Shown here: piece after piece, positions 1 through 7,574 of the stretch
Layout of the letters: each line of letters opens with the position of its first letter
Position numbering within the stretch: position 1 is the stretch's first letter
Source of the DNA: Gammaproteobacteria bacterium
Lineage (GTDB): Bacteria > Pseudomonadota > Gammaproteobacteria > Steroidobacterales > Steroidobacteraceae
Direction: 5' to 3'
Assembly (NCBI GenBank): GCA_003156695.1
Contig: PMHN01000190.1
Location: 8,448-16,086, forward strand
Length of the DNA stretch: 7,639 nucleotides
The notes under the pieces: generated by a model
The model's database searches: none
Told to the model about the DNA's origin: nothing
The model's input: the letters and a program-made list of their open reading frames with translations, nothing else
Translations under genes and position numbers: made by a program

Positions 1-980
1 AATACCATCCCCGCGCCGAAGCCGACGACCACGATCCCGACGTTTTCGATGGAGCTGTGCGCCAACATCGCCTTCAAATCGTTGTCGGTGGTCGCGTACA
101 GGATCCCGAGCAGCGCCGAGATGGTCCCGACCACGAGTGTGACCAAGCCCGTCCCCATCTGCGCGGCCGGCAAGAGATCGGCGTTGACACGCAGGATGCC
201 GTACAGGCCGACGTTCAATGTTACCCCGGCGAGCACCGGGGCAAACGCCCGGGGCGCCCCAACGTAAGCGCGTTGCAGCCAGGAATTGACCGGTACCAGG
301 CCGGCCTTCACGCCGAATCCGAAGAACGTGAGGAGAAACACTCCCCAGCGGGCGGTCGAACCCAGAGCGGAGGCACTGGATTTGACCGCCTCGAACTCCA
401 GGGAACTCGCGCCCAGCCCGAGCAGCAGGAATCCCAAGGCGGCCGCCACCGTTCCGGCTTCGCTCATCGCAAGGAGCAGATACCCCGCGCCGACCTGGCC
501 GTTGTCACCCTCCCTGCTCGTCACCACGAGCAGGTAGCACAGGATGGACATGACTTCCCACGCCAGCAGGAACAGCAAAGCGTCGCCGGCGATCAGGATC
601 AGACCGACCGACGCGTAGAGCGCGAGCAGCATCACCGTAAACACGCGTTCGCGGCCGCTAAACGATTGGCGTCGCAATTCACCGCTGGCGTAGATCGAGG
701 CCGGGAAGAGCACGAGCCCGGTAACGAGTACGAACGCGCCCGAAAGCGGGTCGACTCGCAGCGTGAGCATGGTCAGCCCCGGCAACGACCACAGCGGCTG
801 CGTGAATACTTCGCCAGTCAGAAGCACGTGGGTGCCCGCCACGACGGCGGCGATCGCAGCCAGGCACCCAAGCGCTGTCAGTACCAGGGCCTGGCGCCCC
901 GGCCGTAGCGCGAGGGAAAGCAGGATGCCGGCGCCGCAGGCCGCAAAGAACGCGATGATGAGCGTCTCGCTGTGCATCAT
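1..980 (-). CDS. HyfB-like antiporter-type membrane subunit (partial, C-terminus beyond left edge)
   Basis: I translated this frame by hand: it opens with ATG-ATG at 980-975 and stays open for 326 codons to the window edge, so the C-terminal part is missing. It is a very hydrophobic protein of the NuoL/NuoM/MrpA-D family, a proton or sodium translocating arm subunit. Visible family landmarks are the membrane Glu E142 in LLAWEVMSIL, Lys K225 in GFGVKAGLVP, and K303 plus H308 in DLKAMLAHSSIENVG, the last being the Hyf-type form of the complex I motif. The usual channel motif (PLHxWLPxAH, then a Lys in the next helix) is altered to PVNSWLQRAYVGAP with Asn N256 at the Lys position. Its ATG overlaps the TGA of the small subunit gene (ATGA) and no ribosome binding site is seen, so translation is probably coupled. 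HyfB is the best family match because of the IENVG segment; in Escherichia coli hyfB comes first in this part of the operon, here it comes last. Confidence 0.88.
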   Translation of the reverse strand, partial: MMHSETLIIAFFAACGAGILLSLALRPGRQALVLTALGCLAAIAAVVAGTHVLLTGEVFTQPLWSLPGLTMLTLRVDPLSGAFVLVTGLVLFPASIYASGELRRQSFSGRERVFTVMLLALYASVGLILIAGDALLFLLAWEVMSILCYLLVVTSREGDNGQVGAGYLLLAMSEAGTVAAALGFLLLGLGASSLEFEAVKSSASALGSTARWGVFLLTFFGFGVKAGLVPVNSWLQRAYVGAPRAFAPVLAGVTLNVGLYGILRVNADLLPAAQMGTGLVTLVVGTISALLGILYATTDNDLKAMLAHSSIENVGIVVVGFGAGMV

Positions 981-1729
981 TGCTGTGCGGCAGCTTGGTA
1001 CTCGTCCGGCGCCAGCCGTTCCGAAGCCTTGCGGCCGACGGCTACGAGTAATCCATGCAGGATGGCAAGCGGCGGCGGCGGATTACCCGGCACCGCGACG
1101 TCCACCGGCAGGACGTCCGCTACGCCGTTAGCACATACGAAGCTGTCGGCGAACGCCCCGCCCGACAACGCGCACGCGCCTACGGCGATAACTCGCTTTG
1201 GCGTCGGCATCGCCTTGTGGATCTTCTCCAGCGCGAACCGCATCTGATCGGTCACGGGACCGACGACCAACAGCACGTCCGCATGGCGCGGGGTCGGCGT
1301 GATAAAAAAACCAAGCCGGTGCATGTTGTAATACGGATTGTTGAGTTGCTTCACCTCGTTCAGGCATGCGCCGCAGTCGCCGGCGTCCACCACCAGGATG
1401 TGGATGGAGCGCCGGAATGGCTGTCCCAACTCCTGGGTCGGCCGCGCCGCTGCGGCCGCCCATTCGTAGGTCGGCTCCCAGTTCAGCGGCTGCTCGATGC
1501 CCCGGACGCAACGGTAGCAGTGCACACAACGGCGGCTATCCACCGAGATTACTCCCTGCGCCTGATCGAGCGCGCCGGTGAGGCATCGTGCGACGATCGC
1601 GGGCGCGGCAGCGCCGAAGTCACCCCCGCGGGGCATCCCGGGCGTGACGCCGGCGGCGCGCTCTGCGGCGCGCGGATACGCCGTGGTCCTGATTCCGGTG
1701 CGAATGCCCCTGAAAACCCATTGGCTCAT
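977..1729 (-). CDS. HyfI-like small subunit with N-terminal half-ferredoxin (NuoB family)
   Basis: This 250-residue protein is the iron-sulphur electron-transfer subunit of the peripheral arm. Residues 1-20 (MSQWVFRGIRTGIRTTAYPR) resemble the N-terminus of HycF/HyfH ferredoxins. C49 (CLTGAL) followed by C68, C71 and C74 (CVHCYRC) forms one complete ferredoxin half, enough for one [4Fe-4S] cluster; the first CxxCxxC of a normal two-cluster ferredoxin is absent. Residues about 105-235 are the NuoB/HyfI domain: C119 and C122 (DAGDCGAC) and C186 (VGACALSGG) match three of the four proximal cluster ligands, but the fourth, normally in PGCPP, is Asn N216 (PGNPPPP). C199 lies nearby and could compensate. 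The start is ATG at 1729 with a purine-rich AGGGG-type site upstream, 22 bp after the large subunit gene; the stop overlaps the next gene. Fusion of HyfH-like and HyfI-like parts replaces two separate hydrogenase-4 genes. The role as electron carrier is inferred from the family; the donor is unknown. Confidence 0.9.
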   Translation of the reverse strand: MSQWVFRGIRTGIRTTAYPRAAERAAGVTPGMPRGGDFGAAAPAIVARCLTGALDQAQGVISVDSRRCVHCYRCVRGIEQPLNWEPTYEWAAAAARPTQELGQPFRRSIHILVVDAGDCGACLNEVKQLNNPYYNMHRLGFFITPTPRHADVLLVVGPVTDQMRFALEKIHKAMPTPKRVIAVGACALSGGAFADSFVCANGVADVLPVDVAVPGNPPPPLAILHGLLVAVGRKASERLAPDEYQAAAQQ

Positions 1730-1751: not shown

Positions 1752-3332
1752 TCACCGGTCGTTCTCCGCCACGGACAAATCGAAGGTCGCGAGAATAATG
1801 GGAAAATCCTGGAACGCGAATTTCTCCGCAGCCAGGTGGAAGCTGTGCCAGTTGGTGAAAGACGGCGTCACGATCCGGTAGCGCGCGATCCGTCCGCCTT
1901 CGCCCAACCTCACCCAATGGAACGTTGCGCCGCGCGGCGCCTCGGCCCAGCCCAGTGCGGCACCCGAGCGGTATTGCACCGCCCGACACACCTCGCCTTC
2001 CGTCAGTGCCGTCACCACTTGCTCCATGATGCGCACCGATTGCCGGCTTTCCGCGAACAGCATCCGAAGCCGCGCGTAGCCGTCGCCTTCCCGTTCGCTC
2101 GGCACGTCAAAATTGAACGCCGCGTAACCGGAATACGGCAGCGTCCGGCGCAGATCGCGGATGAGTCCCGAGGCGCGCGCGACCGGGCCGACCAGGCTGT
2201 AATCCTTCGCGGTTTGAGCCGGGATGACGCCGACGTCCTCGATCCGATCGAGAAAACTGCTGGAGACGCTCAGCCGCCGTTCCAGTTCATTCAGCCGCTT
2301 GAGGATGTCCTGTGCCCGCCCGAGCGTCCCGCGGCAGGCATTCGCCGGCAGATCGCATAGCAACCCGCCCGGGGCAAGCAGGCCGAACAGGTAGCGATGA
2401 CCGGTCAGTTCGCCCGATAGGCGCAGCAGTTCTTCTTCGAGAAGTCCCGCCTGGCTGGTGGCAACCGCCAGTGCTGTCGATTCGCAGATTTCCTGGATCG
2501 CGCCAGCGTGCTGCCGCAGCCGCTCAAGCTCAGCCAAAAGTACCCGCAGCGCGCGCGCGCGCGGGGGCACCTGCACGCCGCAGACGGATTCGACGCCCTG
2601 GCAAAACGCCAGTCCGTGAGCGAAAGCCGTTGTCGCAGCGAACCGCTCCGCCAACAGGAGGCCCTCCTCGACCGTCTTGCCCTCGGCGAGCTTCTCGACG
2701 GCGCGCCACTTGTAGAACAGACGGGTCGATGAGCGGATGACGTCTTCGCCCACGGTTTCGAGCAAGAAATGCACAGATTCCGTGATGCCGGAGAACTTAG
2801 GCCCTATGGGCATAATGAACGCGCCGGGCTCCTGGACGATGCGCCGGGGTCGCCAGTCGACGTTCGGACGGCGGTTGTGCATCGCGGCCTGCGCATTGAA
2901 CCCGTGCCGCATCGGCTCGACCCCTTCCTGCCAGACGTCGTCGTGAAGTACGAAATCTCCAAGATGGGGGTGCCCCTCGAAGCGCACGCCGAACATGTCC
3001 TCTGCTTCCCGCTCGTGCCAGTCTGCAGCATGAATCCACTCGACCACGCTCGGGAAAACCTTGTCGGCGAGGGGGGCGCTCACCAGTACGTGCACCCAGC
3101 TGCCTGCGCCTTCGCCGTAGAATGCGTACCGCAGCTGCCATGCGCTTGCGCCCTCCTCGACGATCAAGCCGGCGAAGCTGCAATGCCACTCCTCGACCAT
3201 CCGATGGCACACCTCGGCAAGCACAGGGCGCGTACACGCCACTTCGCTCGTCGCAGTCAAGGCGTCAACGCGGCATTGTGCTTGCCCAGGCCAGTAACGT
3301 TCGATCTGCTGCTGCAATGTGGAGAAGTTCAC
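1752..3332 (-). CDS. HyfG/HycE-like large subunit without Ni-Fe ligands (NuoCD-like)
   Basis: This 526-residue protein joins a NuoC (30 kDa) domain (about 1-150, signature WHEREAEDMFGVRFEGHPHL at 105-124) to a NuoD / hydrogenase large subunit domain (about 160-526). Framework motifs are kept: VEKLAEG, GVQVPPRAR, VGPVARASG, GWAEAPRG and NW near the end. The active-site motifs are not. The position of HycE DRVCGICGFAHS reads ERFAATTAFAHG (229-240), and the position of DPCYSCTDR reads DLSVAENDR (518-526), so no cysteine ligand for nickel remains. The sequence ends at R526, the residue equivalent to the mature C-terminus of HycE and to the end of NuoD, so there is no maturation peptide. The start is GTG at 3332 with GAGG five bases upstream, 7 bp after the previous gene. 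The protein belongs with energy-converting hydrogenase-related complexes; its substrate is unknown. Product identity as a family member is firm, hydrogenase activity is not expected. Confidence 0.93.
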   Translation of the reverse strand: MNFSTLQQQIERYWPGQAQCRVDALTATSEVACTRPVLAEVCHRMVEEWHCSFAGLIVEEGASAWQLRYAFYGEGAGSWVHVLVSAPLADKVFPSVVEWIHAADWHEREAEDMFGVRFEGHPHLGDFVLHDDVWQEGVEPMRHGFNAQAAMHNRRPNVDWRPRRIVQEPGAFIMPIGPKFSGITESVHFLLETVGEDVIRSSTRLFYKWRAVEKLAEGKTVEEGLLLAERFAATTAFAHGLAFCQGVESVCGVQVPPRARALRVLLAELERLRQHAGAIQEICESTALAVATSQAGLLEEELLRLSGELTGHRYLFGLLAPGGLLCDLPANACRGTLGRAQDILKRLNELERRLSVSSSFLDRIEDVGVIPAQTAKDYSLVGPVARASGLIRDLRRTLPYSGYAAFNFDVPSEREGDGYARLRMLFAESRQSVRIMEQVVTALTEGEVCRAVQYRSGAALGWAEAPRGATFHWVRLGEGGRIARYRIVTPSFTNWHSFHLAAEKFAFQDFPIILATFDLSVAENDR

Positions 3333-3339
3333 GGGCGCC

Positions 3340-4824
3340 TCATCGGGTCAACGCAGCCGCCGCCATCGCCAGAAGGTCCTGCAGTGCTTTAGGAACGTAG
3401 ACGCCGAGGACGAGTACCGGTATGGCAGCGAGAACAAGCGCGAGCTGGCAACTGAAAGGCACTCGCGAGCGAGCGATTGCCTCCGGCCGCGAATGTGCGG
3501 GCCCCGGCGAAGGCAGCAGGGCGCCGAAAACCATGCGGTTAACGTGGGCCAGGATGCCAAAAAACGCGATGACGATGAAAATCGCGAGCAGACCCGTCAC
3601 CAGGTACTGTCCTTGCGCCAGACCGGCTTTGAGAATTGAGAACTCACTCAGGAAGACCGCCAGCGGTGGCGCGCCAGCGATCGCAAGCGCGCCGAAAACG
3701 AGCGCAGCGCCGGTGAGTGGGGAGCGCCGGATCAGTCCGCGTACCGCGGCGATCTCACGGGTTCCCACAATCAGTAACGTTGCGCCCGCTGCGAAAAAGC
3801 AAAAGGACTTGGTCACCGAATGACTGACGATCTGCTGCATCGCGCCGTAATTGGCCGCCGATGAGCCAAGGCCGATCGCCGTCAGGATGATCCCCATGTG
3901 CTCGACGGTGGAGAAGGCAAACAGGCGTTTGTAGTCCTTGACTTGCAACAGTAGGAACGCCGCGGTACCGACGGAAACGAGGCCAAAGACAAGGGCCCAA
4001 GTCGCGGCATGCACACGCGGCACGGCCTGCATCACCGGAAATAGCCGCATGATCACGTAGAGTATCGACGTAGTTTCGACTCCGGAGAGCAGCGCGCACA
4101 CCGGCGACGGCGCCTGGCTGTGGGCATCCGGCAACCACGTGTGCATGGGAACCAGACCCACTTTCGTTCCGAGGCCGATCAAGATCAGCAGAAACGCCGA
4201 CTGCAGAAGAATCGGCGGCATTTTGGGCGCCGCCGTCACGAGCCCCGTCCACGTGTAGATTCCCCCGCCGCCGGCGTGCATGGCGGCGAACAGCACCATA
4301 AAACCGAACAACGCGACGCCCGCGCCCATCAGCGACAGCACCACGTACTTCCACGCCGCCTCGAGCGCCTCGCGCGTGTTGTCGAAGGAGACCAGCAGCG
4401 CCGAACAAAGCGTCGTCAGCTCCACCACGATCCACACCAGTGCGGGCTCCGCTAGCACCGGAATGGCGAGCATGGAGAAGATGAAGAGGTTGTAGTTCGC
4501 GTGATAAAGGCGGAGCTTCTTGCCATCCAGGTTTGCCTGCGCCATGTAGCCGACGGAGTAGATTGCGGCAGTGCTGCCGACAAACGCGATGAGCAGCAGG
4601 ATGAGCGCGCTCAAGCCGTCGACGGCCAGCCATTTGGACCACGCCGGCTCCAGCAGTTGCGCTGGGACGGCACCGCTCACGACCTGGCGGGCCAGCCGTC
4701 CGACCAGAATGAGATCGGCCACGCAGAATACGACCGTTACCCACGGTACCCAGCGTTTGCCGAATGGAATGCAAACGAGCAAGGCAGCGGCGAGCGGCAG
4801 CAGCAGAATGACGATGACGCTCAC
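3340..4824 (-). CDS. HyfF-like antiporter-type membrane subunit
   Basis: This 494-residue, strongly hydrophobic protein with roughly 13-14 membrane helices belongs to the proton-conducting transporter family (NuoL/M/N, MrpA/D, HyfB/D/F), close to the 526 residues of Escherichia coli HyfF. Channel residues typical of the family are visible: E135 (WIVVELTTL), K221 (GLGTKVGLVP), H228 and H235 in PMHTWLPDAHSQAPSP, K299 (KDYKRLFAFSTVEHMG), K339 (SHSVTKSF) and E394 (FLSEFSIL). It should translocate protons or sodium ions across the cytoplasmic membrane, driven by or driving the redox arm. The GTG start at 4824-4822 shares a GTGA overlap with the stop of the hyfE-like gene, with GAGGGG a few bases upstream, so translation is likely coupled. 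HyfF is preferred to HyfD/HyfB because it sits between hyfE-like and hyfG-like genes and carries the SPVCALLSG form of the motif; the exact ion is not predictable. Confidence 0.92.
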   Translation of the reverse strand: MSVIVILLLPLAAALLVCIPFGKRWVPWVTVVFCVADLILVGRLARQVVSGAVPAQLLEPAWSKWLAVDGLSALILLLIAFVGSTAAIYSVGYMAQANLDGKKLRLYHANYNLFIFSMLAIPVLAEPALVWIVVELTTLCSALLVSFDNTREALEAAWKYVVLSLMGAGVALFGFMVLFAAMHAGGGGIYTWTGLVTAAPKMPPILLQSAFLLILIGLGTKVGLVPMHTWLPDAHSQAPSPVCALLSGVETTSILYVIMRLFPVMQAVPRVHAATWALVFGLVSVGTAAFLLLQVKDYKRLFAFSTVEHMGIILTAIGLGSSAANYGAMQQIVSHSVTKSFCFFAAGATLLIVGTREIAAVRGLIRRSPLTGAALVFGALAIAGAPPLAVFLSEFSILKAGLAQGQYLVTGLLAIFIVIAFFGILAHVNRMVFGALLPSPGPAHSRPEAIARSRVPFSCQLALVLAAIPVLVLGVYVPKALQDLLAMAAAALTR

Positions 4825-5531
4825 AGGAGCCCCTCGCCCGCCGCCGGCACCGTTGCCGTCTCCTTGAGACTCGCCAATTCGCCGACGGCCGTCGTGCCGG
4901 CCTGCTTCTGCACGGCACGCACCAGCACGCCCATAATGAACACGATGACCAAGCCGTCCGTGGCGATGGCGAGCTCGACCAGCATCCCCAGGTCGCGGGC
5001 GATAGAGATGCCGGCGAGAAACGCGCCGTTCTCCATCACCAATAGACCGATCAGCAGCGACAGCGCCTCGCGCCGCACGGTGAGGGTGAATGCGCCCAGC
5101 AGCAGCACGGCGATGCCGATCGGCACGTTCGGGCCACGGAATTCCGGCCCGACGGCATTGGCCAGCGGAGTGCCAACAAAATACGCGCCGATCGCTAGCG
5201 CCAGAGCGATGAGCAGAGCGGCCGGAATATTCAAGACTTGGTCGATTTCACGCCGAGTATAGATCTCCGCCGGGGACGTTCTGTGCAGTAGCCAGGGCAC
5301 GATGATCGGCTTGCTGATCAGGTTGACGAGCGCTACTGCGTACAGATGCCCCGAGTGGTAGCGCAAGCCCAGCAGCGCCGCAGACGCAGCCAGCAGCAGC
5401 GACTGTGCGATGAACAGATTCAGGCAGCCTCTGGCCTGTCGCATCGCAACGATGCCAAATGCTGTGAGCAGGAACAGGCCTGCCGCCAACGCGTTCAGGT
5501 TCTCCAGCAACTCCTTTGTTGCAGTGCTCAT
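4821..5531 (-). CDS. HyfE-like membrane subunit (NuoK/MnhC-related)
   Basis: This 236-residue integral membrane protein has about seven hydrophobic segments (near residues 14-30, 36-56, 62-82, 103-121, 134-152, 155-178 and 185-206). Escherichia coli HyfE has 216 residues, so the length fits, with a polar C-terminal tail (about 208-236) as the extra part. The last third resembles NuoK/MnhC: GLLVMENGAFLAG with membrane Glu E167, then E186 in LVELAIATDGLVIVFIMG. In complex I the NuoK glutamates link the redox arm to the antiporter subunits; I infer the same coupling role here, sitting between the HyfC-like anchor and the HyfF/HyfB channels. The start is ATG at 5531, seven bases after the hyfC-like stop; the upstream AACGAAG is a poor ribosome binding site. 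The stop overlaps the next gene by four bases. Assignment rests on both sequence and fixed gene order (C-E-F-G-I). Confidence 0.9.
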   Translation of the reverse strand: MSTATKELLENLNALAAGLFLLTAFGIVAMRQARGCLNLFIAQSLLLAASAALLGLRYHSGHLYAVALVNLISKPIIVPWLLHRTSPAEIYTRREIDQVLNIPAALLIALALAIGAYFVGTPLANAVGPEFRGPNVPIGIAVLLLGAFTLTVRREALSLLIGLLVMENGAFLAGISIARDLGMLVELAIATDGLVIVFIMGVLVRAVQKQAGTTAVGELASLKETATVPAAGEGLL

Positions 5532-5538
5532 GCTTCGT

Positions 5539-6489
5539 TCACGGCAAGAAGACCTGTGAGACCATGGCCGCTACAGAGGTGATGAACGCGGCGCCCAGGA
5601 ATTCGGCAATGCGGAACAGCCGCAGCTTGGAGAGGGACGACTCGATGACCACCAACACGAGGAGAAAGCAGAACACCTTCAGGAGGACCGTCGGTATCGC
5701 CAGCAGCACGGCCCCGAAAGTCTGTTCGCTCGCCAATCCCCACGGCGTCACCAGCACGTTCAGGAAAATGCAGAGCAGCACGAAGAATTTCATCTGACCG
5801 CCCCATTTCACAAGGGCGAAGCCGCGGCCGGAGTATTCGAGGGACTTGGATTCGTCGATCATCGCCAGCTCGAAATGACCGCTGGGGTTATCGACCGGGA
5901 TGCGTCCGCCCTCGGCGAGAATCAACATGAGGAACGCCAGCACGAGCAGTACGTGCGAGGGCGCAAAGAAATTCGCGAATGGCGTAACCCATCTCTGCTG
6001 GACGATGTAGGGGATGGTAGAGCCGGCTACGAATGAAACGGTGAAGAACACGATCATGAATACGGGCTCCGCGAGAAAGCCGACCATGCGGGTGCGGCTG
6101 GCTCCAATAGGTCCGTAAGGGTTAGCCGTATCCACTGCCGCCAGGGCGGCGAAGAAGCCGCCGAGCGCCAGCACGAAGCCAGCGCCAAGCATGTCGCCCA
6201 TGAAGGCGAAGAAGAGCGGGTAGCTCGTCAGCACCGGAATCAGCAACGCGACAAAAATCGGCGTGACGAAAACGAGGTAAGGCGTAAAGCGAAAGATCCA
6301 GGAGCTGTCTTCGGAGACGATCTCGTCCTTATGGAACAGCTTCCACAGGTCCCGATAGGGCTGAAAAATGCTCGGCCCGCGCTTGGACTGGACCATTTCC
6401 TTGAGCCGGGCCAGGACCCCGGCCGCGAGTGGCGCGGCGATCATCACCACCGCAACCTGCAGGAGGTTGAACAGGATGCGCGCGATCAC
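5539..6489 (-). CDS. HyfC-like membrane anchor subunit (NuoH family)
   Basis: This is the complex I subunit 1 / formate hydrogenlyase subunit 4 homologue that anchors the peripheral arm and connects it to the ion channels. I choose GTG at 6489, giving 316 residues beginning with the hydrophobic helix of IARILFNLLQVAVVM, because HyfC proteins (322 in Escherichia coli) start just before that helix; an in-frame TTG at 6570 would add 27 polar residues. About eight membrane helices are visible. Conserved loops are SKRGPSIFQPYRDLWKLF (35-52), VDTANPYGPIGASR (119-132), GGRIPVDNP (194-202), and HFELAMIDESKSLEYSGRG (205-223), which holds the acidic residues that line the E-channel region in relatives. 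The GTG overlaps the stop of a short upstream ORF (GTGA) and has no clear ribosome binding site of its own, so coupling is plausible. First main gene of the operon. Confidence 0.92.
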   Translation of the reverse strand: MIARILFNLLQVAVVMIAAPLAAGVLARLKEMVQSKRGPSIFQPYRDLWKLFHKDEIVSEDSSWIFRFTPYLVFVTPIFVALLIPVLTSYPLFFAFMGDMLGAGFVLALGGFFAALAAVDTANPYGPIGASRTRMVGFLAEPVFMIVFFTVSFVAGSTIPYIVQQRWVTPFANFFAPSHVLLVLAFLMLILAEGGRIPVDNPSGHFELAMIDESKSLEYSGRGFALVKWGGQMKFFVLLCIFLNVLVTPWGLASEQTFGAVLLAIPTVLLKVFCFLLVLVVIESSLSKLRLFRIAEFLGAAFITSVAAMVSQVFLP

Positions 6490-6578
6490 GCTTGTGCTCG
6501 TTGGCAGAAGGCGGGATCGCCGCTGCGTGTGCCCGGACAAAAGCGCATGCGGAACTGGAGCGCCGGCCAAACGGTCAT
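6486..6578 (-). CDS. Possible 30-codon leader ORF upstream of the hyfC-like gene
   Basis: An ATG at 6578-6576 follows AAGAGGATAGGC, the best ribosome binding site in this stretch (AGAGGA about six bases before the start). It opens a 30-codon ORF starting MTVWPALQFRMRF and containing two cysteines; its TGA (6488-6486) overlaps the GTG start of the hyfC-like gene as GTGA. The peptide matches nothing I recognise and has no membrane helix. It may serve only to deliver ribosomes to the weak hyfC start, or the match may be chance. Conservation in relatives would decide; I see no direct proof of coding. Confidence 0.35.
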   Translation of the reverse strand: MTVWPALQFRMRFCPGTRSGDPAFCQRAQA

Positions 6579-6674
6579 GCCTATCCTCTTCTCCAAAGAG
6601 AAATCAGGTAGGCATCATCAGCCGGTCAGGCGGTTTTTCTTGTAGGAGGAATGCCATCTCCCACGGTTGATATC

Positions 6675-6703
6675 AGCGTACAGAGAACAGCGCGCCAGAT
6701 CAA
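6675..6703 (-). promoter_or_regulatory. Weak sigma-70 type promoter candidate for the hyf-like operon
   Basis: Read on the minus strand, TTGATC (6703-6698) and TACGCT (6680-6675) are separated by 17 bases. They match the -35 consensus at four and the -10 consensus at three positions. A start near 6668 would give a leader of about 90 bases before the small ORF at 6578. The match is poor and could be chance. Confidence 0.18.
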
Positions 6704-6789
6704 GATCGGGGCGCGACTGGCCCGGGGCTTCGGTGTGTGTCGTAAGCTACGATGGTCGTGTGAAGGCGACGGTAAAAGTCCGGGTGTGC

Positions 6790-6810
6790 GCGCGACCTAT
6801 TGCGTCGCGC
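6790..6810. repeat. Perfect 7-bp inverted repeat just upstream of the ATPase start
   Basis: GCGCGAC (6790-6796) and GTCGCGC (6804-6810) are exact reverse complements around a 7-base loop, CTATTGC. The structure ends 14 bases before the ATG at 6825, so it could be an operator or an mRNA hairpin that limits ribosome access. No T-run follows, so it is not a plain intrinsic terminator. Confidence 0.4.
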
Positions 6811-6824
6811 TAACCCGGGTGATC

Positions 6825-7574
6825 ATGCACAGTAGTGTTCGCGAACTCTGCTCGGATTTGTTCGATCGCGTGGGGCGCGGTGAGCACCTGATCCTCTACG
6901 GCCCACGCGGTAGTGGTAAGTCCACCCTCGTGTCCCAGTTGCATGCTCGTTTTGCCAAAGCGAACACTCCCTGTGGGCTCGCTCAGTACACTTCTTGCCT
7001 GGATGACATTACGCGCACCATGGAAAGCGCCTATCCCGAAGTGAACATCCAGGGAGTAGCCCGTAGAACGGCTCGGGCCAGACTGTGGAACGCCGCGGAC
7101 CGGCGCGGCTGCGTGTTGCTGCTTGATCATCTCACCAAGGTAAGCACCGCCATGGTCGGGTTTTGTCGTCGGCTCCGGGGAGGCATTGCGGGCGTACTGT
7201 TCGTCATCGATGTCGACGTCGAACGCGAGCGACAGCGAATGCGGGCGAGGCGCCTCGCGCTCTCGGTGCGCATGCCGCCGGTATCCACGCGGCAACTGCG
7301 CATGCTGCTTCGGTCGCGGTGTGCCGAGCACTATCTGTCACTCGAGCTGGACATGGAAAGACAAATACTGCGTGCGGCACAAGGCCGTCCCGGATGGGTC
7401 ATCCAGTGCATGACGCTCATGCCTCACAGCCGGTACTGGCACGACGGGCGGCTCTACCCTACCCTGCTTTGCACCGACACGGAGATCACGCTCCGACAGG
7501 GCCACCTGCGTCTGCTGGCACCCAACGCCCACAGCACGTCAGCTGACGTGGCCGAGTCTGAGCTGCACCGATGA
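6825..7574 (+). CDS. Small AAA+ type P-loop ATPase, function unknown
   Basis: From the ATG at 6825 this is a 249-residue soluble protein. Walker A is GPRGSGKST (26-34) after the strand HLILY; Walker B is CVLLLDH (96-102), with D101 present but His H102 where the catalytic Glu usually lies. A later strand (AGVLFVIDVDV, 122-132) is followed by an Arg-rich helix, a MPPVSTRQLRMLLRSRC segment (150-166) like the PLS-x-EEL part of ORC/Cdc6, ExeA and TniB-type ATPases, and ILRAAQGRPGWVIQC (181-195), which resembles the lid helix (GNPRRI) of that group. The frame is open back to an ATG at 6651, but the extra 58 residues look non-coding in character and that ATG lies one base from its AGGAGG, so I prefer 6825; its own site (GGGTGATC) is weak, making the start uncertain. 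The stop overlaps a possible next start (ATGA at 7571). I do not recognise a specific family; a link to the divergent membrane complex is unproven. Confidence 0.72.
   Translation: MHSSVRELCSDLFDRVGRGEHLILYGPRGSGKSTLVSQLHARFAKANTPCGLAQYTSCLDDITRTMESAYPEVNIQGVARRTARARLWNAADRRGCVLLLDHLTKVSTAMVGFCRRLRGGIAGVLFVIDVDVERERQRMRARRLALSVRMPPVSTRQLRMLLRSRCAEHYLSLELDMERQILRAAQGRPGWVIQCMTLMPHSRYWHDGRLYPTLLCTDTEITLRQGHLRLLAPNAHSTSADVAESELHR

Follow-up and report, generated by a model that had tools for sequence, protein, structure and literature searches.

Fluoride riboswitch-headed operons encoding a complex I-like, Ni-Fe-less relative of formate hydrogenlyase

Related complexes and the published link to fluoride

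Complexes of the energy-converting hydrogenase-related (Ehr) type, which lack the CxxC ligands of the Ni-Fe site, have been reported in Nitrospira, Sulfobacillus, ammonia-oxidising archaea and other microbes, and the accessible text of these reports gives their function as mostly unknown (PMC10284858, PMC4378227, PMC6349859). They share the group-4 hydrogenase/complex I architecture and the Hyf-like membrane subunits of the locus described here. The clade to which this locus belongs carries, however, fluoride riboswitches and altered proximal-cluster ligands, neither of which is mentioned for Ehr in the same accessible text, and the likeness is one of architecture and not of comparison with named Ehr sequences.

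In 2010 a crcB motif was described ahead of genes for "formate hydrogen lyase", according to the available portion of the paper (PMC2864571), and the enzyme has been listed, in the part of a later paper open to us, among the commonest ones associated with the riboswitch (PMC11139923). As far as the accessible text describes them, the published operons (PMC2864571, PMC11139923, PMC8004769) have the crcB motif in the 5' leader, as here, and it is very likely that they and the loci of our clade represent the same association, matched by description and not by gene lists. In contrast to the published label, the loci studied here have no Ni-Fe site and no formate dehydrogenase.

Among solved structures, HycE, HycG and HycD of E. 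coli hydrogenase 3/formate hydrogenlyase (7z0s) score best against the large, small and NuoH-like subunits, respectively, but the clade lacks the cysteines, the C-terminal tail, FdhF, HycB and HycI of that enzyme and has more antiporter-type subunits. Pyrococcus MBS (6u8y) is also Ni-Fe-less, with altered proximal ligation and antiporter-like pumps, according to the accessible portion of its description (PMC7684303); another ligand is altered there, however, whereas the clade is linked to fluoride and has a fused ferredoxin half in place of MbsN. Respiratory complex I has NuoB, NuoC, NuoD, NuoH, NuoK and antiporter-type subunits in common with the clade, in which NuoE, NuoF, NuoG, NuoA and NuoJ are missing from 81 loci and the quinone-ligand positions are changed. 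The parts are known; what appears to be new is the join between the riboswitch and an Ehr-like complex, the negative results on hydrogenase and formate dehydrogenase parts, and the ligand shift. Our literature search, with most subscription papers outside its reach, found no report that joins a fluoride riboswitch with a Ni-Fe-less or Ehr reading.

Operon layout and the riboswitch

The stretch of DNA analysed (the window, 7,639 nucleotides, positions 8448-16086 of contig PMHN01000190.1 from a Steroidobacteraceae genome, GCA_003156695.1) carries on its minus strand one operon, read downward from 6670, in which the riboswitch is followed by the genes of the NuoH/HyfC-like, HyfE-like, HyfF-like, large, small and HyfB-like subunits (Table 1). 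A GTG start is likely for the NuoH/HyfC-like gene, the listed ORF of 343 aa starting at a TTG at 6570. The host contig is scaffolded, with unknown bases at the window edges that give X residues in translations. The first HyfB-like gene continues in locus L004 (7299-8411), where it is followed by a second one (6137-7321), and on the host contig beyond the window the second HyfB-like, DUF190 and DoxX-like genes come next. A divergent AAA ATPase gene (PF13191) adjoins the riboswitch at 6822-7574 (+), possibly from 6651; the later start is likelier, because the longer ORF would overlap the riboswitch in antisense. A scan for promoters found none, and the matching search for terminators gave a single terminator-like site, on the opposite strand.

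Table 1. Features on the window, with positions counted from its first nucleotide
Feature	Position	Strand	Basis
Fluoride riboswitch aptamer, RF01734	6602..6670	-	Rfam 51.9 bits, gathering 34, E 1e-11
Likely expression platform	6577..6615	-	Sequence and fold
Possible 30-codon leader ORF, speculative	6486..6578	-	Sequence reading; TGA overlaps GTG start of NuoH/HyfC-like gene
NuoH/HycD/HyfC-like membrane subunit	5539..6489	-	PF00146; 7z0s_D E 2e-42
HyfE/NuoK-like membrane subunit	4821..5531	-	NF008556 E 2.3e-23, below cut-off; PF00420 slightly below cut-off
HyfF-like antiporter-type subunit	3340..4824	-	PF00361; NF005044 (hydrogenase 4 subunit F) below cut-off
Large subunit, NuoC+NuoD/HycE-like, lacking all four Ni-Fe cysteines	1752..3332	-	ORF, domain search, alignment to HycE
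Small subunit, NuoB/HycG-like, with one [4Fe-4S] ferredoxin-like half at its N-terminus	977..1729	-	
HyfB-like antiporter-type subunit, start only, leaves window	3..980	-	PF00361

The Rfam match to RF01734 sits directly upstream of the operon on the same strand. A covariance model of our own, built from 11 examples of which the window is one, scores the window aptamer at 74.7 bits and was run over 80 loci (the best 80 of 139). In 66 of these the HyfC-like gene is present and preceded by more than 150 nt of DNA. A same-strand upstream match of at least 20 bits occurs in 64 of the 66, no more than 600 nt from the HyfC-like ORF in 56; raising the threshold to 30 bits leaves 55 and, within 600 nt, 48. 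At 20 bits the model misses L041, which scores 19.6 bits, and L076, whose match (15.9 bits, E 0.96) is not credible, and the riboswitch is found only 0.75-3.2 kb further upstream in L012, L013, L016, L017, L019, L020 and L028, with a weak match (23.1 bits, 3.2 kb away) in the last. Because this model was trained on some of the same loci, Rfam serves as the independent check, and alone it finds RF01734 in 26 of 29 relatives sampled (6/6, 7/8, 8/8 and 5/7), missing L027, which lacks upstream DNA, L028 and L076. Both models also find the riboswitch in L200, L202 and L203, which were discovered later by protein search alone and where it lies about 3.3-3.45 kb before the large subunit; a fourth later member, L201, was counted as the same as L034.

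Control group-4 loci were scanned with flanks of at most about 8 kb on either side, wherever their operon heads may lie. In 21 of them (13 of the SGDS type without CxxC pairs, and 8, E. coli among them, that carry the Ni-Fe motif) no match reached 20 bits, the highest being no more than 19.0, and Rfam found none in the 7 examined. A further 16 (2 with Ni-Fe cysteines and 14 of SGDT/SGDS type) gave none at 20 bits and none above 17.2, with no Rfam match in the 5 examined. As judged from these comparisons of sequence, the riboswitch is a well supported control element of the clade. At the 3' end of the aptamer, ATGCCTA (6609-6615) is complementary to TAGGCAT (6577-6583), a segment that shares bases with an ATG and lies after a purine-rich stretch, so that the two could pair. 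The same pairing is possible in L006 and L029 and, with a G-U pair, in L007 (TAGGTAT), while other arms (CCTACG/CGTAGG) allow an equivalent alternative pairing in L008 and L010, followed by a T run in L010. This alternative pairing has the look of an ON switch.

Recurrent neighbours anywhere in the locus, counted over the best 80 of 139 loci, include CrcB (22/80), DUF190 (25/80) and enolase (16/80), all of which fit fluoride defence; that CrcB and enolase are seen in a minority is partly because many loci are cut short. A gene with MutS domain V recurs in 11 loci. A search with a CLC seed across the 80 loci found nothing; L004:17262-18185 (+) is a gene of the Voltage_CLC family, separated from the riboswitch on that contig by about 2.1 kb and encoded on the opposite strand. 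Extra fluoride riboswitches occur downstream of the operon at L007:14574-14639, L009:18252-18321 and 21230-21301, and L015:18642-18714, which gives these three loci the look of fluoride islands with several operons; in L009 one of the extra riboswitches has an enolase gene close by.

Subunits, missing partners and spread of the clade

The large-subunit ORF encodes 526 aa and is open throughout. Residues 229-240 read ERFAATTAFAHG and the C-terminal end reads ATFDLSVAENDR, and in the alignment with E. coli HycE (PDB 7z0s_E, E 1.7e-56) the four Ni-Fe cysteines correspond to A232, T235, S520 and E523. Across 81 sequences (the window and 80 related public-genome loci, the best 80 of 139), cysteine stands at none of the four positions in 77, at one in 3 and at two in 1. 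The closest thing to a displaced cysteine is Cys524, adjoining the invariant E523, which is present in 24/81 and is Asn in the window. In alignment A1, comprising 26 sequences of which the others are 71-90% identical to the window protein, the N-terminal motif is invariant except for A238 in one row; in the wider set of 81, again drawn from the best 80 of 139 loci, E229, R230, F237, H239 and E523 are the same throughout and S520 in 79, at a large-subunit identity of 49-80% across the 80 relatives. Because the motif is near-invariant at both depths, the cysteine loss is not a product of chance or decay. HycE has a 32-residue tail past the last motif arginine, which the window protein lacks, ending as it does in ...ENDR. 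The residues aligned with His38 and Tyr87 of Thermus Nqo4, which we take to be the quinone ligands of the NuoD family, are never His or Tyr (0/81 at position 184 and 0/81 at position 233).

By the evidence of these alignments the large subunit is a maintained protein and not a hydrogenase. The preliminary description of this DNA had said as much, and its claim that all four Ni-Fe cysteines are lost is confirmed by the HycE alignment and by the 77 of 81 sequences with none. Its view of a maintained protein, as opposed to a decayed gene, agrees with the open frame, the near-invariant motif in A1 and the conservation in 81 sequences, and its exclusion of a hydrogenase with the lack of Ni-Fe cysteines in 77 of 81 sequences, of a C-terminal tail in the window protein and of a HycI relative at the 81 loci. 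The warning about automatic annotation was justified as well, the JGI source naming many relatives "formate hydrogenlyase subunit 5", and the likeness to Ehr holds as architecture, given the Hyf/complex I-like subunits beside a Ni-Fe-less large subunit. Overall its reading of a maintained, Ehr-like non-hydrogenase under a misleading name stood, but it had overlooked the fluoride riboswitch and the altered proximal Fe-S cluster.

In the small subunit, the N-terminal [4Fe-4S] ferredoxin-like half contains C49, C68, C71 and C74, and the proximal cluster has C119, C122 and C186 as ligands, with Asn216 replacing the fourth cysteine (PGC motif) and a cysteine at 199. These seven cluster cysteines are kept in nearly all of the 81 sequences. 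Position 216 is other than cysteine in 51 of 79 clade members and Cys216 is kept in 28; Cys199 is present in 43 of the 51, and neither cysteine occurs in 8/79, which have Ser together with Asp, His or Gln. Cys199 could restore four thiolates in those 43 of 51 members, and our first idea of an open, MBS-like proximal cluster was weakened by this residue. An exchange between Cys199 and Cys216 by Fisher's test (p 9.6e-12) was discarded as evidence on account of shared ancestry. The tree gives 6 changes at 199 and 3 at 216. Its starred branches offer 4 independent pairs, 1-2 running in the same direction and none in the opposite one; the exchange is not significant.

The antiporter-type subunits are three, HyfF and two HyfB. 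In the HyfF-like subunit E135 is conserved in 68/71 and K221 and K339 each in 72/72, and all three have Glu or Lys counterparts in the alignment with MbhH; another MbhH lysine, adjoining the aligned stretch, is opposite a gap on the HyfF side. The first HyfB-like subunit has E142 and K225 in 68/68. In the HyfC-like subunit (numbered by the 343-aa ORF), E168, E234 and E245 are found in 63/63 and E220 and E240 in 62/63. The presumed proton-channel charges are accordingly placed as largely kept in the NuoH-like and antiporter-like subunits.

No enzyme that would supply or take up electrons was seen beside the operon. Seeds for FdhF, NuoE, NuoF, NuoG, HycB, HycI and HycH found no relative in the 81 loci (3-22 kb, median 15 kb) and nothing in L004, L005 and L200-L203, while the same seeds do find HycB, HycI and HycH in 7 control loci. 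NuoA and NuoJ are likewise absent from the 81 loci. A separate ORF at L037:1815-4517, about 7.6 kb upstream of a fluoride-clade large subunit, combines a NuoB-like domain with a HycF-like match. In the window's own genome (77% complete) no HypD turned up, but 26/30 relatives' genomes have it; it does not separate the hosts and its absence here is not general, and it was rejected as a marker.

The clade spans 14 named phyla among the 81 sequences, most of them from metagenome-assembled genomes in which binning errors are possible. By score and motif, a member occurs in 1/249 genomes of the window's phylum (0/248 without genomes already known), and in other phylum samples in 5/118, 4/199 and 2/148 (3/116, 2/197 and 0/146 without those already known). 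In the 199- and 148-genome samples clade members reach at least 640 bits, against 305-332 for the next-scoring group. Another Ni-Fe-less type within group 4 (L206-L219, L124-L136) has the motifs SGDT/SGDS ... NLSYAGND or NCSYSGND, proximal cysteines that are intact where seen, and no fluoride riboswitch that we could find; in the Nitrospirota sample it occurs in 18/148 genomes (305-328 bits) vs 2/148 for the fluoride-riboswitch clade. This type may be the "Ehr" of the comammox papers, and since two Ni-Fe-less clades exist, "Ehr" in print may mean either.

Possible roles of the complex

From the aptamer, the gene content and the pattern of lost and kept residues, we infer that the operon may encode a fluoride-induced, redox-driven proton pump. 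Of the readings considered this one fits best, though we hold it to be evenly poised between right and wrong. Fluoride binding to the aptamer, itself identified by sequence match, would keep the start region from being sequestered in a hairpin and so turn the operon ON. A low-potential soluble carrier would hand electrons to the small subunit at its N-terminal [4Fe-4S] domain; from there they would move on to the proximal cluster and reduce an acceptor in the emptied Ni-Fe cavity, most likely quinone, even though the customary ligands for one are missing. Protons would leave the cell through the NuoH-like and antiporter-like subunits, and their export would restore the proton-motive force and the cytoplasmic pH lowered by HF entry, and the restored gradient would serve the Fluc/CrcB channels and CLC-F exchangers that expel fluoride. 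Uptake of fluoride as HF is indeed described, in the accessible part of the source, as lowering the proton-motive force on which Fluc and CLC-F export depends (PMC11139923). Against a pump stand the quinone-ligand positions 184 and 233, never His or Tyr, the MbhH lysine that faces a gap, and the riboswitch that is weak or missing in L028, L041 and L076. An "Ehr" of Geobacter sulfurreducens, which may or may not belong to the clade, is more abundant on formate, from which its authors, in the available text, deduce a link to formate dehydrogenase (PMC7894505), and this also speaks against it.

The same cavity, without Ni-Fe or quinone ligands, would suit a fluoride-induced ion antiporter (Na+/H+ or F-/H+, for pH homeostasis) whose Fe-S arm serves as redox gate or scaffold and does not supply the power. 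Three antiporter-type subunits, with charges conserved in HyfF and the first HyfB, are in keeping with it, as is the rank of Na+/H+ antiporters, next in frequency among riboswitch-associated classes in the portion of the survey open to us (PMC11139923); yet the seven cluster cysteines are near-universal and Cys199 is present in most non-Cys216 members, so a working electron wire seems to be selected, and we regard the antiporter as rather unlikely. Should electrons be used at the proximal cluster itself, its altered ligation could reduce a small substrate of the disulfide or polysulfide type, with pumping, much as the three-cysteine proximal cluster of Pyrococcus MBS is the proposed active site in the accessible text (PMC7684303). 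The 51/79 members without Cys216, and the 8/79 with neither cysteine, lean this way. However, the ligand lost is a different one (the first Cys of the pair in MBS, the last in the clade), Cys199 could give four thiolates in 43/51, Cys216 is kept in 28/79, and nothing ties fluoride to disulfides, which makes such a reductase improbable. The same anatomy, with a possible port for a soluble carrier on the small subunit, would also permit running in reverse, the proton-motive force driving quinol electrons to a low-potential carrier for repair under fluoride stress; this would, however, use up the gradient that fluoride export needs, and among the recurrent neighbours, ten representatives of which were annotated, we recognised no gene for a dedicated carrier; we consider reverse running very improbable. 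A genuine formate hydrogenlyase or hydrogenase, as the literature and automatic annotation have it, has in its favour that the E. coli formate hydrogenlyase is the nearest solved structure and that the name is used for riboswitch-controlled genes in the accessible text of two papers (PMC2864571, PMC11139923). We give it next to no credence, since 77/81 sequences lack every Ni-Fe cysteine, the C-terminal tail is missing, HycI, FdhF and HycB are found in 0/81 loci, and HypD is absent from the 77%-complete own genome, though present in 26/30 relatives' genomes; at the sequence level this identity is already refuted.

Returning to the proton pump, we tentatively propose that it would be a dedicated respiratory pump for fluoride stress, of complex I type without the NADH module, the Ni-Fe site or the canonical quinone ligands, and made only on sensing fluoride. 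The fourth ligand of the proximal [4Fe-4S] cluster would have moved from 216 to Cys199 or to Asp, His or Gln, tuning the cluster for a new acceptor, and the "formate hydrogen lyase" of the literature would then be a family-wide misannotation.

A "formate hydrogenlyase" switched on by fluoride has been repeated since 2010, and we correct it here, as no formate or H2 enzyme is seen at these loci. Through the clade-wide fluoride riboswitch, which indicates when the complex is likely made, an Ehr-like complex gains a concrete inducer and a phenotype to test. If the pumping is true, organisms carrying the operon would have another fluoride defence beside exporters and enzyme overproduction, namely the making of the gradient on which export draws.
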